Assembly: GCF_000003815.2 (NCBI RefSeq)
Contig: NC_049997.1
Location: 7,350,707-7,414,706 of the forward strand
DNA: 64,000 nucleotides
Direction of reading: 5' to 3'
From: Branchiostoma floridae
Taxonomy: Eukaryota; Chordata; Leptocardii; Amphioxiformes; Branchiostomatidae
In this document: positions 13,631-54,800 of the stretch, in pieces
How the letters are laid out: each line of letters begins with the position of its first letter
How positions within the stretch are numbered: position 1 is the stretch's first letter
Program-made: the position numbers and the translations under genes
The notes under the pieces: model-generated
Told to the model about the DNA's origin: nothing
The model's database searches: none
The model's input: only the letters and a program-made list of their open reading frames with translations

Positions 13631-16312
13631 CTATTCGAGAATGACATTCTCTGCCACATACGGCATGGCTGTGAGCTGAACCATTTCTGAAGCAAAGTTA
13701 CTTTCTTCACTTTTCCTCTGCTCTGTGTCTGCATGCTTTGCCATATGCCTTCTCAAAATATGTTTCTGGTAAGTTTTATATGAACACAGGTCACAGGGAA
13801 ATATCTGCTTCCCCTCGTGTTCTGCTTGATGTACTTTTAACTCATGCTTGGTGTGAGCAGAGAAAGCGCAGAGCGTACAGCTGTGGTTTTTCTCCTTGTT
13901 ATGTGTCTTTAGGTGCTGTCTTAGGTCACTCTGTTCTTGTGCACTGTAGGGACACTGATCGCAAGTGAAGGGCTTGCTTCTGTTTTCTGTATGTTTGGAC
14001 GTGATGTGCCTTGTGAGAGTCTTCTTCTCATTTGCCGCATATTCACAGTGGGGACATTTGAAAGGTCTCACACCGGAGTGCGTAGCCATGTGCCTGTTAA
14101 AGTTACTAATCATCGCTGCCCTGAAACCACAAATCTCACACACAAAGGAGTAGATGCCATGTTTGGAGCCCATGTGACACAGCAGGCTGTTTTTGGAGGC
14201 AGCTGCATAATCGCACTCTTCACACTTGTATGGTTTTTCTTCCAAGTGACGATATCGATGCTTTATCAACGTACTGCTGCTTGTTGCCGCGTACGGGCAG
14301 TAAGAACACTTGTAAGGTTTCTCGCCAGTGTGTTTTCTCAAGTGGATAACGTGTTCTTTCTTTGACGATGTAACATAGTCACACACTTTACACTCAAATC
14401 GTTTCTGTTTTTCTTTTTGTACTTTGCGTTTCTTTTCATTACTGGGTGGCTTGCATCTGTTCTCCGTATGTTTGGACGTAATGTGCTTTGTGAGAGTGCT
14501 CTTCTCAATTGCCGCATAATCACAGTGGGGACATTTGAATGGTCTTACACTGGAGTGCGTAGCCATGTGCCTGTTAAAGTTACTAATCATAGCTGCCCTG
14601 AAGCCACAAATCTCACAAACAAAGGAGTAGACGCCATGTTTGGAGCCCAAGTGGCATAGCAAACTGTTCTTGGAGGCAGCTGAATAATCACACTGTGAAC
14701 ACTTGTGCGGTTTTTCTTCCAAGTGTCGATATCGATGCTTTATCAACGTGCTGCTGCTTGTTGCCACGTATGAACAGTACGAACACTTGTAAGGTTTCTC
14801 ACCGGTGTGTTTTCTCAAGTGGATAACATGGTCTTTCTTTGACGATGTAACATAATCACACTCTTTACACTGAAATTGCTGCTGTTTCTCCTTTTGTACC
14901 TTGACCTTCTTTTCATTGTTGGATGACTTGTTTCCATTCTTAGTATGTTTGGACGTAATGTGCCTCGTGAGAGTCTTCTTCTCATTTGCCGCATAATCAC
15001 AGTGAGGACATTTGAATGGTCTCACATCAGAGTGTGTAGCCATGTGCCTGTTGAAGTTACCAATCATTGCTGCCCTGAAGCCACAAATGTCACATACATG
15101 GGAGAAGATGCCATGTTTGGAACCCATGTGGCACAACAAACTGTTCTTGGAGGCAGCTGAATAATCACACTGTGAACACTTGTGCGGTTTCTCTTCCAAG
15201 TGACAATATCGATGCTTTCTCAATGTGCTGCTGCTCGATGCTGTATACGGGCAGTCCAGACATTTGTAAGGTTTCTCGCCAGTGTGTTTTCTTAAGTGGA
15301 CAACAAGGCGTTGTTTTGACAATCCCACGTAGTCACACTCTTTACACTCAAATCGCTTCGGCTTTTCTTTTTGTACCTTGCCTTTCGTTTCATTGCTGGA
15401 TGCTGTACAAGTGTTTCCTTTGTGCTTTTGATCCAGATGATTTTGAAGTGTGACTTTTTGTGATGCAATGTACCTACAATGTGGACACTTATACTGCCTC
15501 AGTGCCTCTTCACCGAGGGTTTTCATCTGAAAAGTTACATTAAAAGATGCCACCTTTTCCGAATGTTCAGATTTCTTTCCAGTACATGTCTCCTTTTTAA
15601 CTTCTGTTTTCAACTCCTTTGACATTTCCAGCTGCTCTGTAACATCATCTGTAGTTTCTGCACCATCAGAAGTTCCTAAGAAGGTAATTTCTGTTGAGAC
15701 GGCATCCATTTCTTCATCACAGTCTTCATCATCATGTTTTGCTTGTAGATCAGCATCTTGCACCTCTGGTAGGACCATGGCCACATCTTGTTCCAAACTG
15801 CCACCTGCACAGATAGAAAACTGACTACTGTCTAAATCCATTCCATTATCTGAGATGTTGGAGTCAGACATATCCTGTTTATCAGTACTGACTTTGGGAC
15901 TGTGGATACTTCCTGTATTGTAATCTTCTGGAGTGAATGGATCATATTCGTCGTCACTTTGGCACTCTCCTGTCAGACTTTCAACAGGTGGTGGTTCGTT
16001 CTGCTCTTGGATTTCTGACTCTACATCCCCACTAACCATTCCTTCCTGAGTGCAGTATTCACCATCTTTTCTCTTCGTGTCTTGTGAGGAGTCTGTTTCT
16101 GGTGTTTCCATGGTTGCCTTGACAACAGCCCCCTGGTACTCGGCCATCATCACAGCCCCCAGTTCCCTGACCAGGCCGTCCATGTTGTCTGTCCGTCCGT
16201 CCATCTGGATGTTCCTCCTGCTCAGCTCCAGGATTAGTTCCTCCAGATGCAGTCTGGGCAGCACGGCTAGTGTCACCTTCTGACTCAGTCCACAGACGCG
16301 ACTCACCTCCAT
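13631..16312 (-). CDS. C2H2 zinc-finger protein 1, 19 fingers, single coding exon (893 aa)
   Basis: A probable sequence-specific nuclear DNA-binding protein. The N-terminal module (residues 1-60) has CGLSQ, VTLAVLPRLHLEEL and AEYQG motifs and recurs in four other genes here. An acidic, Ser/Thr-rich linker runs to about residue 265, followed by 19 C2H2 fingers. Fingers 2-6, 7-11 and 12-16 are three tandem copies of one five-finger block of about 170 residues, each block opening with an HLRKH finger followed by a TGEKPYKC linker. Unlike its neighbours, the coding part has no introns. A splice acceptor just upstream (AG at 16330-16331) implies a non-coding first exon. The start at 16312 is chosen because the module aligns with the starts of the other family members. 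Targets are unknown. Confidence 0.93.
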   Translation of the reverse strand: MEVSRVCGLSQKVTLAVLPRLHLEELILELSRRNIQMDGRTDNMDGLVRELGAVMMAEYQGAVVKATMETPETDSSQDTKRKDGEYCTQEGMVSGDVESEIQEQNEPPPVESLTGECQSDDEYDPFTPEDYNTGSIHSPKVSTDKQDMSDSNISDNGMDLDSSQFSICAGGSLEQDVAMVLPEVQDADLQAKHDDEDCDEEMDAVSTEITFLGTSDGAETTDDVTEQLEMSKELKTEVKKETCTGKKSEHSEKVASFNVTFQMKTLGEEALRQYKCPHCRYIASQKVTLQNHLDQKHKGNTCTASSNETKGKVQKEKPKRFECKECDYVGLSKQRLVVHLRKHTGEKPYKCLDCPYTASSSSTLRKHRYCHLEEKPHKCSQCDYSAASKNSLLCHMGSKHGIFSHVCDICGFRAAMIGNFNRHMATHSDVRPFKCPHCDYAANEKKTLTRHITSKHTKNGNKSSNNEKKVKVQKEKQQQFQCKECDYVTSSKKDHVIHLRKHTGEKPYKCSYCSYVATSSSTLIKHRYRHLEEKPHKCSQCDYSAASKNSLLCHLGSKHGVYSFVCEICGFRAAMISNFNRHMATHSSVRPFKCPHCDYAAIEKSTLTKHITSKHTENRCKPPSNEKKRKVQKEKQKRFECKVCDYVTSSKKEHVIHLRKHTGEKPYKCSYCPYAATSSSTLIKHRYRHLEEKPYKCEECDYAAASKNSLLCHMGSKHGIYSFVCEICGFRAAMISNFNRHMATHSGVRPFKCPHCEYAANEKKTLTRHITSKHTENRSKPFTCDQCPYSAQEQSDLRQHLKTHNKEKNHSCTLCAFSAHTKHELKVHQAEHEGKQIFPCDLCSYKTYQKHILRRHMAKHADTEQRKSEESNFASEMVQLTAMPYVAENVILE

Positions 16313-16363
16313 GGTTTGTTAGTTCCACTCTAAATAACAAAAAAAAATGATCTTAAATTGAGA

Positions 16364-39291: not shown

Positions 39292-40469
39292 CTTAGTTAC
39301 CACCGTTTCGCCCCCCTCCCCCCAACCTCCGAAACATGTACGAGTATCTTTAAACTCGTTCAACGTGATTTGTGTGGAAAAGTAGAAAACAAAATGTACA
39401 TCTTAATATTTCTACATGTTGAAGGCATCCTAAACTTTCCAACATATGGCTAAAATGTCGTCTAAACGAGCTAAAACTCAACAAAACTCAAGTTGTGTAC
39501 CAACCTGCTTGGCTTGGCATATGCCCTTTGACATGGAATGTTCCATTAGAGCCCAAAGGTGGGTAGCTTTGTATACATATACCTGTATATTCTTGTAAAC
39601 CATCAAATGCCATCTTAATCACCCCTTTCCTATTAATGATAATATTATAGTTATAAGAAAATGTTCTTGATTTTTATCATAAAGTGGTTCTTTTGTGAAC
39701 TACAAACAATTCATATCTTACCTATGATTTTAGTAGACTCACCCATATTAGGACATCTCGTACGCAGGGCAGTCTAGTCAATTCCTTTTGAATTGTCACT
39801 TTAAAAGATTTATGATGAAACTTATGAACAGTTTGTAGTGAAATGATTAACGTTTTTAGCTAAAGTCAGTCTAATTGTGACTTTTGAGTCGGGAATGAAC
39901 ATATTGACCATCTTCTGTGCTGAGTACGAGAGTAGCCTGGATCTATGTGATGTTTACATTTACTTTTCTTTCTTTTCCTGAGAGTTTTCTTTGGGGTTTC
40001 TGAATGAACAGAGAGGATTTTTCAGCAGCTAGCTTTCAGGATTTTCATTATTTCTGCCATTGTCACACATCTGTACAATATTACCTCCATGAAAATGCAG
40101 GTCATCATCTTCGACACCCCCAAATAGCCCAATTTAGGGGAGAGGGGGTATCGTTTTTGGTGCCCTTACCTGTGTGTCTGTTTGTGAAAAGTAGTCGGCA
40201 ATTAACCTTTGAACCTATGAATGGATTGCAACTGACATTTGGTATGTGGGTAGGGGCTGAGAAGACAAAGGTCAAGGTCAACTTTAGCCCCCCCTGGTGT
40301 ATGACGATGCTACAATAGCACTTGTTTTTAAATCTTTTGACCTGAACATGCTATGGTCTTGTTTTTTCTTTGGTGGCAGATGAGACAGCTTGTGATTATA
40401 ACGAAGGAGTGGTGCAGGTTTGGGCCTCTTAGCAGTTTGCTGTGGAACTGCAGGGACATTTTCTAAAGA
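39292..40469. other. No gene recognised
   Basis: AT-rich, with no recognised exon. The LINE that follows may extend a little way into the right end, but nothing there aligns in my reading. Confidence 0.4.
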
Positions 40470-41585
40470 CGTTTCAAGAGGAATAACTTATTAAAGAATT
40501 TTGACAAAGAGCTTGTTGTAGTATTTATCGACTTTCGCAAAGCATTCGATTGTATTAACCGTAGTAAAATGTTTAAGATCTTAGAGGCATATGGGGTTCC
40601 AAAAGACATTGTTAATGCTATAGCAGTTATGTACAGAGATACATCCGCAGTTGTTATCACTCCAGATGGAGAAACTGACATGTTTAGCATTGATACTGGT
40701 GTACTGCAGGGGGACCCTCTTGCTCCATTTTTGTTCATTATATGTCTAGACTATGCCTTAAGGTGCTCGATTTCAGACACTGATGGTTTTACACTCCGTC
40801 GTCGGCGTAGTAGTCGCTACCCTGCAGAAGTCCTCGCCGATATCGATTTTGCAGATGACATTGCCCTTTTGGAAAACTCATTACTTTTTGCACAAATCCT
40901 GTTAGACAAAGTAGAAGTGGCATGTCAGGCCATCGGCTTATATTTGAACCCGTCAAAAACAAAATACATGCATATAAACCCATCATCTTCCCAGCAACTA
41001 ACTACTTCCGACGGTTCTGAAATCGAGCGTGTAGTAGACTTTAAGTACTTAGGTGGCTATACCAATTCTGAGAAGGATATGGAATGTAGGATTGCTCAAG
41101 CCTGGAGTTCTCTCCATTCCTTACAAAAGATATGGAAAGCACCCATCAGTAAGCACACAAAAACCAAAGTGTTTAAAGCATGTACTGAGTCCATTCTACT
41201 GTATAGTTGTGAGTCATGGACTATGACAGCAGCACAGAGCAAAAAATTGGATGGTACTTATACGAAAATGTTGAGAAAGGTGTATAATGTTTCATGGAGA
41301 GACTGTTTAACCAACAAGCAACTATACGGCCCACTCCCAGCCATTTCATCTGTGGTGAGGCAGCGCCGACTCGCCCTGGCAGGGCACGTGGTTCGTGGGA
41401 ACGAGCCTGCAGGGAGACTAATGGACTGGCTACCAGAAGGAAGGCGCAGAGTTGGCCGACCGTACATTACCTTAAAGACAATGATAGAAAGAGACATTGG
41501 ACTGTCAGGGCAAAGTTTACTGTCAGCAATGAAGGACAGATCATTCTGGAAATCTTGTGCTTCAGACTGTACCTCACCGGTGTAA
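40470..41585 (+). mobile_element. LINE reverse transcriptase, C-terminal part in one open frame
   Basis: The frame is open from about 40470 through the Met at 40569 to the stop at 41583-41585. It contains FIDFRKAFDCIN, LQGDPLAPFLF, the catalytic motif as FADDIALLE, GLYLNPSKTKYM, and a tail with RRRVGRPYITLK. These are the palm and thumb of a non-LTR retrotransposon polymerase of a type unlike the 22915 element; RTE-like is my guess. The N-terminal endonuclease and first polymerase motifs are missing, so it is 5' truncated. The 3' end is near 41600-41640. Confidence 0.88.
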
Positions 41586-43869: not shown

Positions 43870-45366
43870 TTATTTATCGTCTGCCGTATTGTCACTACTA
43901 CTCAGATGATAGTAGTACTGTTCAACCGCCTGACATCTCTCATCTTCACTATGTTTCTCCATATGTTTAGACAGGTCCCTTTTTCTTGCCGTGCAGTAAT
44001 TACAAAAAGGACACTTGTAGGGTTTCTCCCCGGTGTGAGTTCTGAGATGGTTGACCAGAGCAGACTGGACGGCAGCTCGGTACGCACACTTCGGGCACGC
44101 GTACGGACGGTCTCCGGAATGCGTGCGGAGATGTTTGACCAGATCGGGCTTCCGACTGGTCCTGTAGTCGCAGTGGTCGCACTTGAAGGGTCTCTCACCG
44201 GTGTGTCGCTTCATGTGGACCTGGACGTGCTCCTTCCTGGCGCCCGTGTACTCGCACAAGGGGCACTTGAAGGGTCTCTCACGGGTGTGCACGCGCACGT
44301 GTTGTTTGATGTTGCCCCGGTGACGGGTGAAGTACGAACACAGCGGGCAGTAGTACAGCTTCGTCAACTTCCGGCTGCCGTCCGATTTCTCAGAGGACGA
44401 GCCTTCATCAGCGCCTAGTAACGGAAGCAAGAATCAATCAATCAATCAATCCATCGATCAATCAATCAATCAATCCATCGATCGATCGATCGATCAATCA
44501 TTCATTCGTTCAATCAGTCAATGAATCAATCAATCCTATACGAGTGTGATAGATACCGGTATACCTGAGGCTAAGTCTAGATTTATTTGAAAAAGGAATG
44601 TCCTTCTACATACTTAGGTTAGATACTCTCAATGATTTACACATGCATGTAAATCAATGGTAAAAATCGGTGGCCAAAAATCAGGGCGCAAATGATTTTT
44701 CATCCTATGTATTTTGACTTCTGATTGACACCTTGCAACTCTGTCGCTCCTAGAAGCGAGCAAATATCCAATCAAATATCATAACGGAATGCATGCAAAG
44801 TACAGATATAGCGCTAGTTCACCTTTATCTGTGGGGCAACCTTTATCCGTTGTCTTTAAAAACAGCACATTAAGGAGTATTAAGTCTGCGAACAGTGATT
44901 TCAAATTTACATTTTTTTCAAAATGTTCCGATTTGAAACTACCGTCCATCGACGTCATATCCCTAAATAGGTTTTTTTTTTTACAAACAATGAATATAGG
45001 TTACCCTCGGATAAAGGTGAACCAGCGTTAGCTACAAACAGAGCATTAACCTGTTTCTTGCAGATCTTGCCAATCCATTTCCCTTGGTGGTGCGTCCCCG
45101 CTTTCCAGCATCTGTTGCTCGAGACTCTCCGCCAGAGACGCTCCACTGAGGACGCCTTGGATCAACTCCCTTTCCTCCTCATTCACAGTGTCACTCAGGG
45201 GGGACAGTGGCTCCTGTTTTATTACAAAGTTGATGTCATTCTGCGTCAGAAATGTCGCCGGTTGATCATTGTACGCGTTCTGCTCTTCTGATGTTTGATT
45301 TTCACGAGAGTTCGCTCCATCTTTGTCCACTTGGTGGTGGTTTGGCATGGCTTCTTGAGACTCCAT
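43870..45366 (-). CDS. C2H2 zinc-finger protein 5, five fingers, with a SUMO motif (286 aa)
   Basis: Two coding exons: 45051-45366 and 43870-44414, phase 1 junction, 861 bases in total. Exon 1 (about 105 residues) is polar and contains VIKQEPLSP, which fits both the SUMO consensus and the phosphorylation-dependent form (hydrophobic-K-x-E-x-x-S-P). Exon 2 encodes five consecutive C2H2 fingers with standard TGEKP-type linkers (one is TRERP), starting about residue 120. It lacks the N-terminal module shared by the other genes, and its finger sequences are closer to general vertebrate-type fingers. Probable SUMO-regulated DNA-binding repressor; targets unknown. Confidence 0.9.
44431..44535. repeat. 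(ATCA)n/(ATCG)n microsatellite
   Basis: Tetranucleotide units atca and atcg, slightly interrupted, begin about 15 bases upstream of the exon 2 acceptor of the five-finger gene, in its intron. Confidence 0.95.
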
Positions 45367-45693
45367 TGGTATAGGCTCTCTCTGTGGACGCGTCTCGATA
45401 TTCTCTATTTGCGAAGATGGCGATGCATATGATTCGTCACGCCAAGATCGCAGCAGCAGCTCAGTGTGCGCCTGCGCGAGCTTTGAGATGATGTAATGTA
45501 TATATAATGAGGCACAGTTCCCTGCGCCACCATGCGGCCGCGTGGGTGCACTGCACCTGAAAAACTGGCACTACCGGTTTCAACCAATCATAGACGTCGA
45601 TTTCGGTCACGAGGTGCGTTGTTTCTAGATGGGTCCGGTCGCCATCTTTGTTGGCTAGTGTTTTGACTTGGGTTCTCGAGTTTTCGCCGAAAT

Positions 45694-45895
45694 TTGACTG
45701 AAATTGACTCATTCGAAGTCCAACGTCGGTGGAGATCTATGCCGCAAGTTCAGAAGAGGCTTTTGACGGTTTCTTCGGTTACTACATCGGTAAAAACCCT
45801 AAAAATACCCGGTTGGATCGATTGTACTACCTTCCGTGGGTCAGATATCACCATCGTATTTTTTTGTGTCGGCCAGGAGGTCGATAAAAAAAGGT
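45694..45895 (+). other. Possible divergent first exon on the plus strand
   Basis: An open frame from ATG 45694 runs to a near-perfect splice donor (AAAAAAG/GTAAGT at 45893-45900), divergent from the five-finger gene. No downstream plus-strand exon was recognised, so it may be a non-coding promoter transcript or chance. Confidence 0.2.
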
Positions 45896-45899
45896 AAGT

Positions 45900-46685
45900 T
45901 TCACGAGTTTTCCGCCATGTTACCTAATTTGCATATTCTAAATCGCAATTACCATTGAATATAATCGAAAATAATTGATGCATATACGTATATTTTAGTT
46001 AATTTTCGCCTAGACATCTGTTTTTGTCGATTGAAAGTCTGAAATCGTTTCATGTTGCGTCGTAAACACCGATTGTGTTTGCTGCCCCCCTCCCCCTTCA
46101 AGCATCATGCCACATAAAATCATTCTATTAAAACGATAACTTTACAGACGTCTTGCTTTATTTTACTGACGTGCAAACCAGCATGTTTAGTTTGTTACTT
46201 TGTATTTCAACAGCACAGAATCATATTTATTATTTGTTTAATGGACACAGATTATGATAGCATATTTTACAGCTTTCTTTATTACAACATAAGATTTTAT
46301 ACAATTGCATAGCATGATAGAAATTTTTTTATACCAGTATACTGGGCATTTCCATAGCTACAAAGAGGGCTTGAAATCAGATTAAAAAGTAACTTAATCA
46401 AGTGATTTGATGATAGACCAATACTATCAGGAAGAACTTATAGATGTACATAGTTTGATAGAGGACAATATTTACAAAAATCTAAAAGTGACGTTACCTG
46501 TAATAAACCTGATCTAGTAGCGCTGACATACAAGCACTAGCCTAGTGATCAGGTGTGAGAGGAAGAAGGGTAAGCCCTACAAGATTCCTTATCATAACTT
46601 CTGTACATGGGATTGATACTTATGCACTACAATGCTAGTTCTTTTATGGTATCATTGCAGTGAATGTTTACAGTCAGGAGTAATT
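45900..46685. other. Spacer left of the RAG1-related gene
   Basis: AT-rich. I looked for terminal inverted repeats or a CACAGTG-type heptamer that could mark a transposon end here and found none. Presumed 3' flank of the RAG1-related gene. Confidence 0.4.
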
Positions 46686-49600
46686 CTATTTGTTCTTTTT
46701 TCTCGGCACAGGGTTGGGGACACCTCCAGTACGGTCTGGGCTTACACCGATGAGATGGTTGGTCAGGGTGGAGCGAAGCCTCTTCACAGGATCTGCTATG
46801 CCACATGTTGTCCTGGAGATGTTGTTGAACTGAGCATGAACTTGCTCTAAACCCTGTTCTCCCAGGAACCCCAAACCAAACTTCCACTTCCGGACACAAG
46901 GCACAACGTGGTACTCCAACATGTGCATCTTCACAGGTACAGAGCCATGTGGCACACCCTCTCTATAATATTCCATGAATGATCTGATGGCTCTGTCTGG
47001 AATGGGATACAGGGAAAAAATCAAAATAAAGAAAGTATCAACACATCAAATCATCACTGACACAACAGTTACACAGCAATTTGATAAAAGAATTAAGGGT
47101 GTCCTTGCCTAGTTCATCAATTGCCTCGTCATCCATGTGCCCACCATGTGAGTACTTCTTGTGGCATGAAGCAAACAGATCAAAAAGTCTCTTGTACTTG
47201 TGAGCTGCTGCTCTTGCACTGGGGACTATGGTGAGCGGCAGATCATCATATTTCTCCCAGATGGCAGTCACAACTTTCACAATGACAGACGTCAAGTCTT
47301 CAATGGCTTTGTCCTGTGTATTGTAATGAAATGTCATCAGAGTAGGTTCAAAACATGTAAAGCATGCATTGCCTTAGTTTTCAAATCATTATTCAAACTG
47401 AAATAAAAGAACAAGTACTAGTACTTGCCTGAAAGCATAGTGTTGACATGGTTGCCAATGAAGGATTCGCCGTGAAAGGGTTGCCGACAAACCCGGTACT
47501 CCTGAAGTATCGGGTCGATCTGGGATCCCAGTGGGCCCTCTCCCTTCTTCACTGACGCCTTTTCCCTGACTTTGACTGCACTGTCCCTCTGCACGAGTAA
47601 TAGAATAACTTGTTGGAAAAATTGAGGACACTGATACTTTATAGTTGCATGCAAATAGAACTCTATATACACATGTACTTGAATACCTGACTTCTAGTCA
47701 TAATATGCTTACCAGCTTTTCCTTCTCCTGGTACAGGTGCTGGACTGTGCTGCAGCCAGCCTGGAACACGGCCTCTGCCCTCTCATCATCATCATCACCA
47801 TCGCTGTACGCCAGCCACGCCAGCTTGTTCTCCTCCTCCTCCAGTTCCTCCTCGAGAGCGTCGGCTTTCACATCCAGCTCCCGGGCTTCATCGATGGCAG
47901 CCACATATGCCTTGAACTTCCCAAGGTGCTCATCGTTCAGCAGTTCCTCCTTAGTGATGTCACCTTCCTCCAGGACTGCTGCCAGGTAGGACTGTAGCTT
48001 ATAATCAATGTCATGGAGCTCGTTCTCCATGAGCTTAAAAAGCTTTAGGTAGATACCCAGACTGATGTGTAGACCAGGTACAATAACCTGTAAACACAGT
48101 AAGGTGGCTTAGACTATTTCTATTTGAGGTATGACCAGGGGAAAAAAATAGAGAAAATCTTATTGTGTGTGTACAAACTTACCTGGTCTATCGGCACATC
48201 AAACATAACGGGTTTGATGGCATTGTGGTATAGCTTGGCCACCTTGAGCTTCCCTCCCCCCTCAACCAGGAACCTCTGGTGGTCTCTGGCCAAGCTCTCC
48301 AGGGTTCTGGCGGGGATTTGTAGCCTACAGCTGTCCTTGTCCTTGATTTCTTCTTGTGTGACATAGCACCACAGACATGGGCTAGTTCCTGTGGTAGAAA
48401 GGTAGCACAGTGTCAGAGAGACTGTCCAGTACAGAAAACTGGTTACAGCTTACATAAGAAAATATATAAGTCAAGGAGGTCATTGATCAACACTTTCAAT
48501 AGTTTCTTACCACAAGCACCAGATAGGCCATACCACAGGCAGAGGTATGCATAGTCCCCTGACACAAAAAGACGAATAGAGTGTTCCTTCCCCTCTTTGC
48601 ACCTGCAACACAAATTTGATTTTTCAGTATCATTATCATTGGGAGATGGTAACATGTACTTATAGTTATACACAGAATGGAAGATGTAAATTATGAGCTA
48701 TGAAAAGTTTGAAAGCTTTTAAGTTCATACCATGCTTCTAATTCATACATTGTGTAGCAGATGTTAACTTACTTCCATTTGGATTGTTGGATATCCTGAA
48801 TGTCCGCCGAATACCTGCTTGTAGCAAGGTTCAGGTTTTCCCTACTGTCTTTAGCATTAAAAATGCAAAAGACAGTAGTGTTGAACTTGGAGTTAGGGTG
48901 CTCTTTGTTCAGGATTTGGAAGGCCATTTTAAATGATGGTCCTCCATGGTCTCCTCCAATTTTGACCCAGATTTCCTCTGGGATGTTTCCATCATGCCAG
49001 GTTAGGGTGCTGAAAAAAAAATCCCATTAGTTTCACCATCAAATGTTGAATTCAAACATGGACGTAAACACACATTTGAAGATAAAAGGTAGTTCCTTAC
49101 TTTGCTTTCTCCTTTCTTTGTAGGTTGTCAAAGATGGCGTCCTTGAGTGATTCAACGTAGGCGCAAGGCAGAAGCTGTACTGTGCTGTCTGTTTTCCCCT
49201 TCACAGAAAATGGTAAGTTTTCTGCCTTTATGGAAATGTTGGAAAGGAGCTCTGCTGCAACAGCCCTAGACGATTTCTCACTTTCCATGCTTACATTGTA
49301 TCCTTTCAGCCACCTGTAACATATCAGAACACTGTGCTTAAACTAAGACACATACATAAACTACATTTAAGACAGCTATAAAGAATCTTTTGTGAAAGAC
49401 ATCTGTGATTTTCATGTACCTTCGAAGTTTCGCACACTGACTCCAGTTCATCCCAATGTCCCCTTTTGCTGCCAGCAGGTGCCCTGTAGGGATGCGGACC
49501 CTGTCCAGCTTCAGCTCTTGCAGCATCCTCTGCAGCTCATCCCGAGGATGGATTCGCAGTTCCTCCTTCATCAGTGCTGCGGAGTCCCCACCACTGACCT

Positions 49601-51142
49601 CGGCCCTCACATCCTGCATCAGTTTTGCCCGTTTCCTGTTGGTGGCTGCCGTTGCTTCACCAGCAGTTTTCCGGGGCTTTGGTACATGTACCAGTGTGAA
49701 GGACTAGACAATTCAAAGAAAAGTAACAACACCATGACTATGTAAACTGCAATGGGCTAGAAGCCAGTCTCTATTGTGGTCACATATGGCAACTAAGCTT
49801 GTTATATTCAAGTGATAATTTGAGCTGATGAAGTGTATATTTTTATATTTAGCACAACTTTATGTTCAGTATCATTAAGGTCACAGTAGAAAGTGAGTAA
49901 TGTACATAGAATAATAGTCCATCTTTTTTCCACTAGTCAAGTCATGTAGTATAAAAAAAAGTTCCATACCTGTGCTGCAGTTTTAACCTCAACACTGCGC
50001 TTGTCTTTGCTTGCTTCAAGCTTACGGTAGGCATATGAGGTGAAAACAAAGTCTTGCTCTGGTGTTAGTGGACCTTCTTCATTTATGTCAAACGGAATTT
50101 TGTAACCTGTGTTGGAGGGCGGGGCAGCTCCAGGCACAGTTTGACTGGAAGAAGATGAAGATGTAGAAGGAGCAGATGATGTACAATTAGATGTGTTACT
50201 TTGTGTAGGGTTAGCAGCTGTCAGAACATTACTAGTTGTTATAGTAGGAGGATTAGATGGTACTGGAGGCACTATAAGAAATGGCAGAATGACTGGAACA
50301 GGTTGCATGGAAGTACTTAATGTAGGAGTGCAAGAGGGACCCCCTTGCCCTGTGATCATGGCTTCTGTTTTTGCAGTGCAGTCAAGGTGGTGCTTGAGTT
50401 GCTCCAACCTTAACTGAGATGAACATTTTTTGCAACTAAATGTCAACTGCGTGTAGCAACACCCCCATGTTCTGTGGACAGGTTTCAGATTTGTTTGCAT
50501 CATTTGTGTTTTGCAGACAGGACAGCCAATAGTGTTTGTTTTACCTACCTCAAATGACTTTTGTATGCACTCAAAACAGAAGATATGAGCACAGGGGGTT
50601 TCAACAGGGAGATACAGGAAAGACTGACAGATGCCACATTTGTAAGCATCAAGGTTACAAATGGGCTGAAATCGAGCTTCATCAAATGGATAATCATCCA
50701 ACTTGTCAAGCAATGTATCAAATATTTCCTCCGACAATTTAGCAGTACTTGTACTCTGTTCTTGTTCAACCTTGTTCTTAGGTACTTGAATCTTTGGTCT
50801 TCCCGGGGACTTCTTTTTGGGGGGTCTTCCACCTCGGGCAAGTGCCACAACTTTGTCACAATGGGCACACCCATCACCGTACCAGTGCGGGTACCAGGAT
50901 ACACGCTTTGGTGCATGTTCTGTTGGTGGCCTGTGTATTTTTAGCATGCACCGATGGCAGAAGTAGGGGGGGTGTTTGTAACTCTTGTCATTTTCTACAT
51001 TGACATTCCACACCTCCTGAATTTGCTTCACATAGTCAATGCAAGGATGTGGCTTTATGAAATTTGATTTGTCTCTTTTGGTGAGAACAGATTCGCCACA
51101 AAATCGGCAGAGTTTTAATAAGTTTTGGACATGATCAGACAT
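46686..51142 (-). CDS. RAG1 N-terminus/RING protein with transposase-like core (N-RAG-TP-like)
   Basis: Exons: 49970-51142, 49420-49703, 49101-49313, 48773-49009, 48511-48602, 48183-48388, 47713-48087, about 47429-47588, about 47058-47313, 46686-46996; about 1100 aa. Residues 1-100 have RAG1-like zinc pairs: C12/C15, C62/C65 with H70, and a YPH stretch before C92/C95, as in the RAG1 N-terminal region. Two GRP (AT-hook-like) motifs follow, then a C3HC4 RING (C169, C172, C184, H186, C189, C192, C207, C210) and a CKKC...HHLDC finger. Later exons give KIGGDHGGPSFKM (D577), FVSGDYAYLC with WYGLSG (D652), a CLWC pair, and GLGFLGEQGLEQVHAQFN (E about 1046), candidate catalytic acids of an RNase H-fold transposase. 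Published N-RAG-TP elements pair a RAG1-like N-terminus with such a core. The exon 8/9 junction does not close in frame. No transposon ends were found, so it may be a host gene. Confidence 0.82.
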
Positions 51143-51878
51143 GATGAGAGGTTGAAAAAGAACAGTCTAAAGATTTCAATGCTTCTAATACAGCAAAACT
51201 TGCCCTGAAATTTGTAAGCTCTCTGCATGCTATGCTCGATTGCAACCCATATATGTGGGGTAGGGTGGGGGTCACTTCCTGTACACTTTGACCAGAATAT
51301 ATGACAATATATATATATTACAACAAAGAAATGTTCGTCTGTTAGTGTTTATATGTCTCCTAACACATACTAATTGTTCCAAAATGCAGTTTTACCTAAT
51401 TTGAGGAGTTAAGGAACAAAAAATAGCATGTGACCTAGATGCAGGACAGAAAAGTCATGTCCACCCACGTGTCTGGAGTGACATTTTCATCAACACATAG
51501 AAGAAAAGGAAGAAATACACAGTTACTAGAAATTATGTCAGAAAGTAGATATAAGTATGAATTTGATAAAGAGAAGAAGTATTACCGTGTTGTAACCGTT
51601 AGAAAGGGTGAAAAGAGCACTTGAAATGAAGCAAAATCGGGTCTGTGCCTGACAGGCATGGACAAATGTGTCTGGAGTTGAAACAGTGATATCCCTAAGG
51701 TGACCCTTGGGGTCAGTTGCATTCCAGAGGGCAGGGCTTAGATTTTTGTAAGACAGCTACTTGAGGGTTGATTAATGGTTTAATCCTCCCAAAAGGCCAT
51801 AGTTACAAGGAGTAATCAGCCGTTGCTATGGCCCAGGTAACAAGATCTCGCAGTATCACGCAGGGAACTCTCGCGTGG
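51143..51878. other. Spacer between the RAG1-related gene and the finger-less family member
   Basis: It contains the probable promoter of the RAG1-related gene near 51150-51300 and a short AT run at 51307-51320. I see no terminal inverted repeat and no exon. Confidence 0.4.
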
Positions 51879-54800
51879 CTAATCTCGCGCAGGCGCACAC
51901 TGAGAAACGCGTTTCCCCATCTGGGAAGGAGACGTGTCGTGTGCGTGACCCGTGATTCCAGGATTGACATGTAAAGGACGAAATGACAGTGGTGAAATGG
52001 CGGCAAACGAGCGTGGGACCCAGACAGTGGAGCCATTGACTTGGACCAGCTTTTGGTAGCTAGGCAGGGCTTCCCGTATCACTGAAGAAGGAGAGCCACT
52101 GTGAGATTGTGTTCCAGGACTTTCATCACTTGTTCGGCGGTAAGGAAACACTAAGGACGACTCTTTAACCAGTGTCGTCTCATGGTTGAGTCGTCTTTCT
52201 CTTTCATAAGATGTAGTTGGTTCGGATGGCCTGTGTTCCATATGAGTTTCTGTTGCAGATTGTCCATCTTGTCCGTGGTAAGAGGAAACGGACGGCTGTG
52301 GAACTGCGGGCGTGTCGTTTGCCTGTACTTGTCTTTCTGAGTAAGCAATTGGTTCTGGTGCCATCGCAGAGGAATGTAAGTTCATTGAAGATCTGTCGCT
52401 ATGTCCTTCCTGTCTCTTGTATATGGTTGCTTCGTGTAGAACTGACGACAACACGCTGCTGTGAGAATTCGTGTCCACAGTTTCAGGCTCTTTTGGAGTG
52501 CAGTTGGCGATGTCTGATGTCATTCCCGACACTGTCGTCGTCCTCTCTACATGATTTTCGTCGTCCTTTTCTGCATTTCTTTGGCAAGGTTGGTCGCCGT
52601 AAACTCTCGTCTCTGCTAACCCATGCAGTCGCGTTCCTGGCATTGGAAACGACGAAACAACTTCTTTTGATAGTGTGAAATGTTTTCGTGCACTCTCTCC
52701 GTCTCTTTGATAAGAATCTACCATTTCGCGTGGCATTTTAGATGCAGTACTTGTAGACTCTTCTGTATTTCTTGAGCAAAGTTGGTCGCTGTGAACTCTA
52801 GTCCAACCCAAAACATGTAGTCGCGTATCTAGCATTGGTAACCACTTAACAGCTTGTTTTGATAGTGTGGGATGATTTTGTTCACTCTCTCCGTCTCCTT
52901 GATAAGAATCTACCGTTTCGCGTGGCATTTTAGATGTAGTACTTGTAGCCACATGGTACTGTGACGTGTCCCCATCGTTTCGTCGCCCCATGCCAGGTAA
53001 GGCGAACTGTCGTAATTTTACGGGTAGAGAAAAGTCCCGCGTGTGTGACATCCCTTCTCTTCCCTGTGGAGAGACACCTGGTTCCTGCAGTGACGTAGGT
53101 AACGATGACTGATTCGTCTTTGCGTCGTCGTTATCTGTCTTCCTTGACGTCGGCACAGCCTCCTCCTCTGCTATCGTGGGCTTAGCTTGTTCAGTCGGAT
53201 CTCTGATATTTTCCTGTTGTCTGGGCTCAGCCGTGATTACTTTTTTCCGTTTTTTCCGTGTCTTTGAAGGTCTGGACTGCTGTGTTGCTGGGATCGCACC
53301 ACTTTCCAATTGCAGAGTTTGCCGATGAGTGTCAGCTTTGTTTTGCATTACAGATGACGAGGGTTTAGATAAGTCATTTGCAGCCGCTGCACTATCTTCT
53401 GAGGTCTCGGGAGAGTTACTCGGCTTCCTGTCTGACGGATTCTTTTCGCTTTGCTCTTTGCCCTCGACGTCTTTCTTCCAAGACTCAACCGAGCCCTTCG
53501 AAATTGAAGATACCCATTCAATGTGTAAGGCTGGACTTTTGGGTTGTGTCCAATATGGACGGATCTGTTCTTCTGATGGTGCGTCTACGGACAGGTCACG
53601 ATATGGTACGATCTCGTTTTCTGACGGTGTCTGGTAGGGTGACATGTCTTTCTCTGATGACACCGGAGGTTCAGTTGGGCCATTAGCGTGATGTACCGTG
53701 ACGTCACCGCTTTCATGACGTTTTGATCGTTTAGAAGACGTCGCCTCGTCTGCGGCTGCTGTAGTAGGGGGCATGCAGGCGTCTTCTTTGTCTGTTTTTC
53801 TCTTACCCGTGGGCACCTTTTGTGCTGATGCAGTGGAGATATGCAAAGGACTCAGGCTAGATGGCATATACGGTTGTGACACGGGCAGTGTTGGCAGGTC
53901 GTGAGTGATTTTTCTCCTGCTATAGCCTTTCCAATAGTTAATTCTTCTTGCACCAAGTGGTAGCGATCGGTTGGTACTGTCGGATGCGTCCATCTCCACC
54001 TTTTTCTGGTATTGAGACGTCGACGTTTCCTGTGGACCAGTGCTCGTAGAGGATGTAGTAGTGGTGCTGCTTTGCGAGTGTTGGTCATGTGGTTCTGTGT
54101 CTGGTGACGCTCCTGACGTGTTCGACGTAAGAGCGGCGTTACTCNNNNNNNNNNNNNNNNNNNNNNNNNNNNNNNNNNNNNNNNNNNNNNNNNNNNNNNN
54201 NNNNNNNNNNNNNNNNNNNNNNNNNNNNNNNNNNNNNNNNNNNNNNNNNNNNNNNNNNNNNNNNNNNNNNNNNNNNNNNNNNNNNNNNNNNNNTGTCATG
54301 TCGTCGTGCGACGTCTCTTGCGTGGTGTTGTATTCAGTGTACGCATGTGTGTGGCTCCACTGCCCCTGGTCTATGCGCGGTTCTGTGACGATGTGGAAAC
54401 TTTCTTTCGTATCTCTTCGCTCTGGTTCTTTAACCTCTCCACTATCTGCCGGTCGCATGCTTAAGTCTGTGGGCGCGTCCATGTGTGTCTCTCTCAAATA
54501 CGTCTCTCTAAATCTTTCTACCGGCGGCCCGCGTCGCCCGACTAGCTCGCCTGCCCACAGCGATGGGTCATAGTAGCTGTACCCTACTCTCCGGGTCACG
54601 TGGCGCATAACGTCAGGGGCGGTCGGCTCGGATTGGATGTCGAGTTGCTGGTACTCCCGTACCATGACGTCATGAAGCGTCGAGATCAGGACCTGTCGAA
54701 AGTCAATGTCTCTCCGACCCAGCTCTATCAGGACCTCCTGCATATACAGTCTGAGAAATGGAACATTCAACACTCATTTAATGTCAATTATGCGACCCTA

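Follow-up and report, generated by a model that had tools for sequence, protein, structure and literature searches.

The 64,000-nucleotide stretch of the Branchiostoma floridae genome analysed here (the window) almost certainly holds a Chapaev-type DNA transposon of the lancelet, with one recognised gene, lying within a coding exon of what is probably a C2H2 zinc-finger gene. The whole element spans 6499 bp (45438..51936, minus strand; 5'-CACGCC...GACGTG-3' on the plus strand) and was delimited by means of related elements and equal 4-bp flanks. Chapaev is a known kind of transposon with a known host group, to which the window copy adds another member; this copy may be identical with a Branchiostoma Chapaev entry in Repbase. 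A RAG1-like head on a lancelet transposase has been known since 2015 (PMC4411706). The placed ends of the window element go beyond the preliminary description, and their unequal bipartite layout may be new for Chapaev.

The transposase gene lies on the minus strand from 51142 to 46686, where GT/GC-AG sites allow ten exons to be spliced into a model of 1,082 residues. The preliminary description had proposed a ten-exon gene at 46686..51142, and this stands: the exons join, and ten matching exons were modelled in three diverged relatives as well. Exon 1 (49970..51142; open reading frame, Pfam and phmmer) encodes a Chapa zinc domain, a RING, a C2H2-like finger and a low-complexity linker, and exons 2 (49420..49703) and 3 (49101..49313) were defined by the joined exon model and the relatives. 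Exon 4 (48773..49009; Pfam and alignment) carries GGDHGG (D577) and the DUF1280 region. By alignment, SGDYAYL (D652) falls in exon 5 (48511..48602), CLWC, the C(2)C motif (C671, C674), in exon 6 (48183..48388), the LH motif (GLHISLG, H742) in exon 7 (47713..48087), and both H(4)H (H1004, H1009) and GEQGLEQ (E1026, E1030) in exon 10 (46686..46996). According to the exon models, exon 8 (47429..47588) is 160 bases long in the window copy vs 159 in all three modelled relatives. With the ACACAG acceptor that two of the relatives use, exon 9 would start at 47313 and exons 8 and 9 are out of frame in the window copy; the gene model requires an unusual AAAG acceptor for exon 9 (47109..47306). With this one-base difference from its relatives in exon 8, the window copy may be inactive.

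Exon 1 had been claimed to reproduce the non-core half of RAG1, and the profile comparisons bear this out. Three features lie in order on the minus strand: the Chapa or RAG1 non-core zinc domain (about residues 1-116; 50795..51142), a C3HC4 RING finger recognised by Pfam RING models (residues 168-214; 50501..50641), and a post-RING zinc finger with an HHLDC end that aligns with the RAG1 finger (residues 237-255; 50378..50434). When the model was compared by phmmer with solved structures, residues 152-380 of mouse RAG1 (6oem_A) matched model residues 39-260 with an E-value of 4.8e-10, tying for first place with a second full-length RAG1 sequence. Among the best 60 of the 129 matches, RAG1 alone reaches back from the RING across the upstream zinc region, and matches to UHRF1 extend partway into the linker. 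The similarity holds when the RING is left out: residues 1-135 match Pfam RAG1_imp_bd with 31.8 bits and pass the curated cut-off of 23.3, and the zinc region without the RING matches this profile at E up to 1 in 4 of 4 families (best E 1.8e-08). Longer scans fall below the same cut-off, with 20.4 bits for the whole protein and 19.9 bits for exon 1. With a profile built from the zinc region alone, a RAG1 N-terminal structure came up at E 0.0018, and full-length RAG1 scored no better than E 9.8. The window gene thus has the Chapa zinc domain of Chapaev together with the RING that some Chapaev subgroups carry. The RING is absent from the exon 1 model of one relative (C9b), and it may have some role in the transposase.

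The head is fused to a transposase core, as had been suggested. The core matches Pfam DUF1280 (PF06918; E 4.9e-11, 43.1 bits, cut-off 25), as do all four of the family members scanned. DUF1280 corresponds to Chapaev transposases, which are placed in one clade with RAG1 (PMC3985635, 2014, in the text available). An alignment of four families over 702 columns leaves D577, D652, C671/C674, the LH at 741-742, H1004/H1009 and E1026/E1030 invariant. The candidate acids that the preliminary description had pointed out in GGDHGG, SGDYAYL and GEQGLEQ are among these invariant residues, with E1026 and E1030 as two candidate catalytic glutamates. In the window core the two cysteines follow D652 by 19 and 22 residues. 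Vertebrate RAG1 has the same second-acid-to-cysteine spacing (19, 22) and an HxxxxH pair, if its counterparts are, as we take them to be, D708, C727/C730 and H937/H942. It is plausible, and already proposed in print, that the window core would work like the RAG1 core.

At the level of profiles the core has no significant RAG1 match, so the head and the core part ways in the profile search that had been proposed for the protein. A core profile gave 0 matches to solved structures in the PDB at E up to 10, and hhalign of the window core against the RAG1 core was not significant (E 0.075, probability 0.75%). In this non-significant alignment CLWC falls on RAG1 CTLC, and GLHISLG opposite ALHCDIG. 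PF12940, the profile of the RAG1 core, has no match in the window gene and eight elsewhere in the genome. Translations of two of these eight loci gave matches to mouse RAG1 at E 1.9e-8 and 6.8e-12; against the transposase models, four in number, neither reached a meaningful level, the best E being 0.17. These results bear on the reading of the element as a relic of ProtoRAG or Transib, with a RAG1L core, in place of a Chapaev. The RAG1-like head, the CAC ends and the RAG1-type order of motifs would all suit such a relic, but its core would not be expected to be DUF1280, nor would PF12940 be expected to match eight other places and pass over the window gene. The duplication is moreover 4 bp, vs 5 bp in ProtoRAG (PMC8289069) and likewise in Transib (PMC8355894), as far as the available text of these sources goes. 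We consider a ProtoRAG or Transib origin extremely improbable and treat the element as a Chapaev.

The preliminary description had noted a lack of visible transposon ends. They are present: CAC...GTG termini flank the gene, and outside them lies an identical TCGT duplication (45434..45437 and 51937..51940). The ends were placed by carrying over the CACG boundary from the pairs C6/C9a and C9b/C10, both made up of recently separated relatives, in which identity ends, within one base, at CACG outside the equivalent motif. In these four relatives the ends were fixed, within one base, by the stop of the pairwise match before the flanks were compared. All seven elements with both ends placed have 5'-CAC/GTG-3' ends; CAC itself helped to place the ends of the window element, of C15 and of C10b, as well as one base in both C6 and C9a. 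Equal 4-bp flanks also occur in 7/7, of which 6/7 are informative, the 3' end of C10b having been picked by its duplication and GTG and hence being less informative. The duplications are ACGA (TCGT on the plus strand), GGGG, AGCT, AAAA, TAAC, GTTA and TAAT, the last picked partly as a duplication. When 240 CAC/GTG pairs near both ends of the window element were compared, two had equal 4-bp flanks, namely the chosen pair and one that shares its left end. Inside the termini lies a perfect inverted repeat of 21-bp subterminal arms, one at the transposase-3' end (45460..45480, plus strand) and one at the transposase-5' end (51884..51904, minus strand); each arm contains the TYAGT motif described below. 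Its inner 19 bases, allowing up to 3 mismatches, have two matches in the window vs 0.01 expected. The 21-bp repeat was also considered as the element termini and rejected; on inspection it has no matching duplication, and the comparison of recent pairs puts the CAC ends outside it. Two of six printed cuts at the 21-bp repeat nevertheless joined the host frame.

The element interrupts open frames on the minus strand, with 964 amino acids upstream and 174 downstream, followed by a C2H2 zinc-finger exon. The upstream part of what would be one large coding exon covers 51937..54773 (with an N run at 54145-54293 inside it) and the downstream part 45046..45433; the frame is restored at the empty site. 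When the element and one TCGT are removed in silico, the 964-aa and 174-aa frames fuse in frame (...ITGHAH/ESYASPSSQ...). Pfam recognised no family in the 174-aa frame, nor in the upstream frame as scanned from 54143 to 51879, so the zinc-finger exon (43870..44414, minus strand; Pfam zf-C2H2) is tied to them by its position and by an available in-frame join. On these grounds the C2H2 exon probably belongs to the interrupted host gene. Several further zinc-finger open frames occur within the window. The right flank has a single place in the genome, and no empty allele was seen. Because removal of the element restores the frame of the probable C2H2 zinc-finger gene, we read the window copy as an insertion, with no sign of domestication.

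Six further elements in the genome have CAC/GTG-type ends and 4-bp duplications. Two pairs among them, each on different contigs, are nearly identical over aligned, unmasked columns (C6/C9a 99.04%, C9b/C10 99.68%), and since these pairs (99.0% and 99.7%) have ends and duplications, relatives of the window element moved recently. Searched against the genome, exon 1 has 25 matches (E up to 0.001), of which four, the window copy among them, are close to full length, and the core has 79 exon-level matches. Searching with the terminal DNA returned, besides the window element, a relic on C2 and C15; as for the other searches for copies, these counts are lower bounds. For the relative at C9:5973509, 2.2 and 3.9 kb were searched for ends and none was found. 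The genome search for copies and ends that the preliminary description called for therefore succeeded in part: ends and near-identical relatives were found, and no near-identical second copy of the window subfamily was (its best other match in exon 1 stands at 59%). The seven-element counts exclude a place on C17 (gap 36), the C2 relic and a copy on C3. At the C3 copy, a 2,713-aa open frame was considered as a giant fusion and rejected; the part examined is a further C9b-like copy that continues into an assembly gap, translated as X.

The nearest relative of the window element is C15, and between the two transposases dN is 0.29 and dS 2.04 (saturated), values that point to purifying selection. 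It had been claimed that the gene may be domesticated; on this reading it would be a RAG1-like gene serving the host and derived from N-RAG-TP or Chapaev. Open coding exons, the low dN/dS against C15 and the failure to find a second close copy of the window subfamily are what such a gene would lead one to expect, but low dN/dS is equally expected of a transposase selected for mobility. The many introns had been taken as a sign of taming, which they are not, because ten exons are common to the three modelled relatives. The ends are intact and flanked by a target duplication, so the mobile ends have not been lost; the element splits another gene, exon 8 is out of step, and relatives moved recently. 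Domestication is accordingly very unlikely, and the reading of the window copy as an inserted transposon is kept.

The termini of these elements are bipartite and unequal. Counted from the transposase-5' end, a TYAGT motif begins at base 34; counted from the 3' end, it begins at base 24, an offset of 10 bp. At the 3' end it is exact in 7/7 elements, and at the 5' end it is exact in 4/7 and present in 7/7 when one mismatch is allowed. When the seven elements were reduced to five lineages, grouped by similarity without a tree, the motif columns scored 25 and 23 of 25, and the maximum in 2,000 shuffles, a control built from 3' ends alone, was 17. When the gap in the pattern was allowed to vary between 15 and 45, seven places in the genome matched: five with a gap of 32, one with 22 and one with 36. 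Six of the seven are ends already in use; the reversed control gave zero matches. The offset of +10 was the best of 41 within the window element, C6 and C9a, and was not the best within C15, C9b and C10 (the test covered these six elements, with C10b outside it).

Tentatively, and with rather less than even confidence, we propose that RAG1-headed Chapaev transposases follow a pairing rule like the 12/23 rule, in which a long end (35 bp from CAC to the motif) is paired with a short one (25 bp), one helical turn apart. There is also a real chance, though short of an even one, that the 35/25 asymmetry is accidental, or reflects mere shared descent of a few copies, and has no functional pairing rule behind it. 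The lineages are related. TYAGT was defined after inspection of all ends, having first been noticed in the window copy and C6 and scored in all afterwards, and the 5' motif is weaker in just those elements, C15, C9b and C10, in which +10 is not the best offset. Accident fits less well with the exact 3' motif in every element and the 5' motif within one mismatch, with column scores above the shuffle maximum, or with the concentration of free-gap matches at 32 and their absence from the reversed control. If the pairing rule is true, unequal signal pairs predate the RAG/ProtoRAG lineage, or arose twice in transposases with a RAG1-type head. The conserved unequal ends tie these elements, in a way that can be tested, to the origin of the 12/23 rule, since the ends of ProtoRAG (27/31) and the RSSs are unequal as well and most Transib ends are reported to be symmetric (PMC8289069, in its available text). 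A search of the Chapaev literature, partly through titles and the starts of abstracts, returned no report of unequal ends, which is weak evidence of novelty.

The transposase would thus combine an N-terminal Chapa zinc domain and RING with an RNase-H-like DDE core into which a C(2)C/H(4)H zinc site is inserted. The predicted enzyme would bind two bipartite ends, each with a terminal CAC and a subterminal AGTGTGCGCC-like site, and would cut at CAC/GTG. A 4-bp staggered cut at insertion would give the target duplication; the insertion hit the coding exon of the probable C2H2 zinc-finger gene. Judged by exon 8, the window copy may since have lost full transposase production.

Compared with known systems, the element bears the marks of Chapaev. 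The hallmarks given for Chapaev are generally a 3-4 bp duplication, 5'-CAC/GTG-3' ends, C(2)C, LH and H(4)H (PMC4079192, 2014, in the available text), and the window element has all of them (4-bp duplication, CAC/GTG, C(2)C, LH and H(4)H with DDE). Chapaev transposases of lancelet and sea anemone have been described with a Chapa domain followed in two subgroups by a RING (PMC4411706, 2015), and the RING-bearing subgroups of Chapaev (CMC/CMCT group) join Chapa and RING to a DUF1280 core, as the window gene does (PMC4411706, PMC3985635). The published descriptions, in the portions available, make no mention of unequal bipartite ends such as those of the window element. N-RAG-TP of Aplysia, which the preliminary description had brought to mind, likewise has a RAG1 N-terminal-like sequence within a transposon, but by the available account it consists entirely of N-terminal-like sequence, whereas the window gene also carries a core (PMC8355894). 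By its DUF1280 core, its ends, its duplication and its motifs, the window element has Chapaev as its nearest well-defined family.

Exon 1 is homologous with vertebrate RAG1 in the zinc domain of the non-core half, in the RING and in the finger behind it. The cores are not significantly alignable, the duplication is 5 bp in the RAG1 system vs 4 bp here, and no RAG2-like partner was recognised by eye in the window element. The lancelet protein with the RAG1 non-core half is a transposase, within an element that has intact ends and recently moved relatives. As had been anticipated, this has a bearing on where the N-terminal half of RAG1 came from: a RAG1-like half is fused to a transposase core. 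In the available text of PMC4411706 such a head-core fusion is inferred to precede RAG1, and our finding fits this 2015 proposal that Chapa and RING were joined to a DDE core before RAG1. The 10-bp offset between the two ends is reminiscent of the unequal 12/23 spacing in V(D)J signals and of the 27/31 ends of ProtoRAG. ProtoRAG of lancelets resembles the window element in its CAC start and its bipartite unequal ends (27/31 spacers; PMC8289069) and in the RAG1-like N-terminus of its protein (PMC7204232), according to the parts of these reports available. The window element differs from ProtoRAG in having a Chapaev-type core, other end sequences, and a difference of 10 bp, not 4 bp, between its two ends.

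The Chapaev transposon interrupts what is probably a C2H2 zinc-finger gene on the minus strand (43870-45433 and 51937-54773). Since the reading frame of this host gene is open on either side of the element, the insertion looks young, or the host gene looks to be dispensable by now. Several further C2H2 zinc-finger open frames are found in the window, between 13631 and 34194 and between 60935 and 62014, and one of these (13631-16318) has an N-terminal stretch that by eye is like that of the split host gene. A 372-aa open frame at 40467-41585 resembles, on inspection by eye, a fragment of a LINE-type reverse transcriptase.

Elsewhere in the genome, the RAG1 core profile PF12940 is matched at eight places, on contigs C11 (1543383-1544420), C6 and C165, and stop codons are present in seven of them. 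Contig C165 carries five of the eight places together with Chapaev fragments. At the two C6 places, the frames that match mouse RAG1 are broken.

The C9b/C10 family of Chapaev relatives has no RING, and its exon 1 has a tandem repeat with 51-bp steps instead. The C3 relative has a similar exon 1 that continues into an assembly gap; a 2,713-aa open frame at this locus was rejected as false, being produced by the gap. The Chapa region, the RAG1-like non-core zinc domain that begins transposase exon 1 (50738-51142 in the window), gave a weak zf-AD match in three of the four aligned transposase families (best E 4.8e-05), hinting that the Chapa and zf-AD zinc domains are related.
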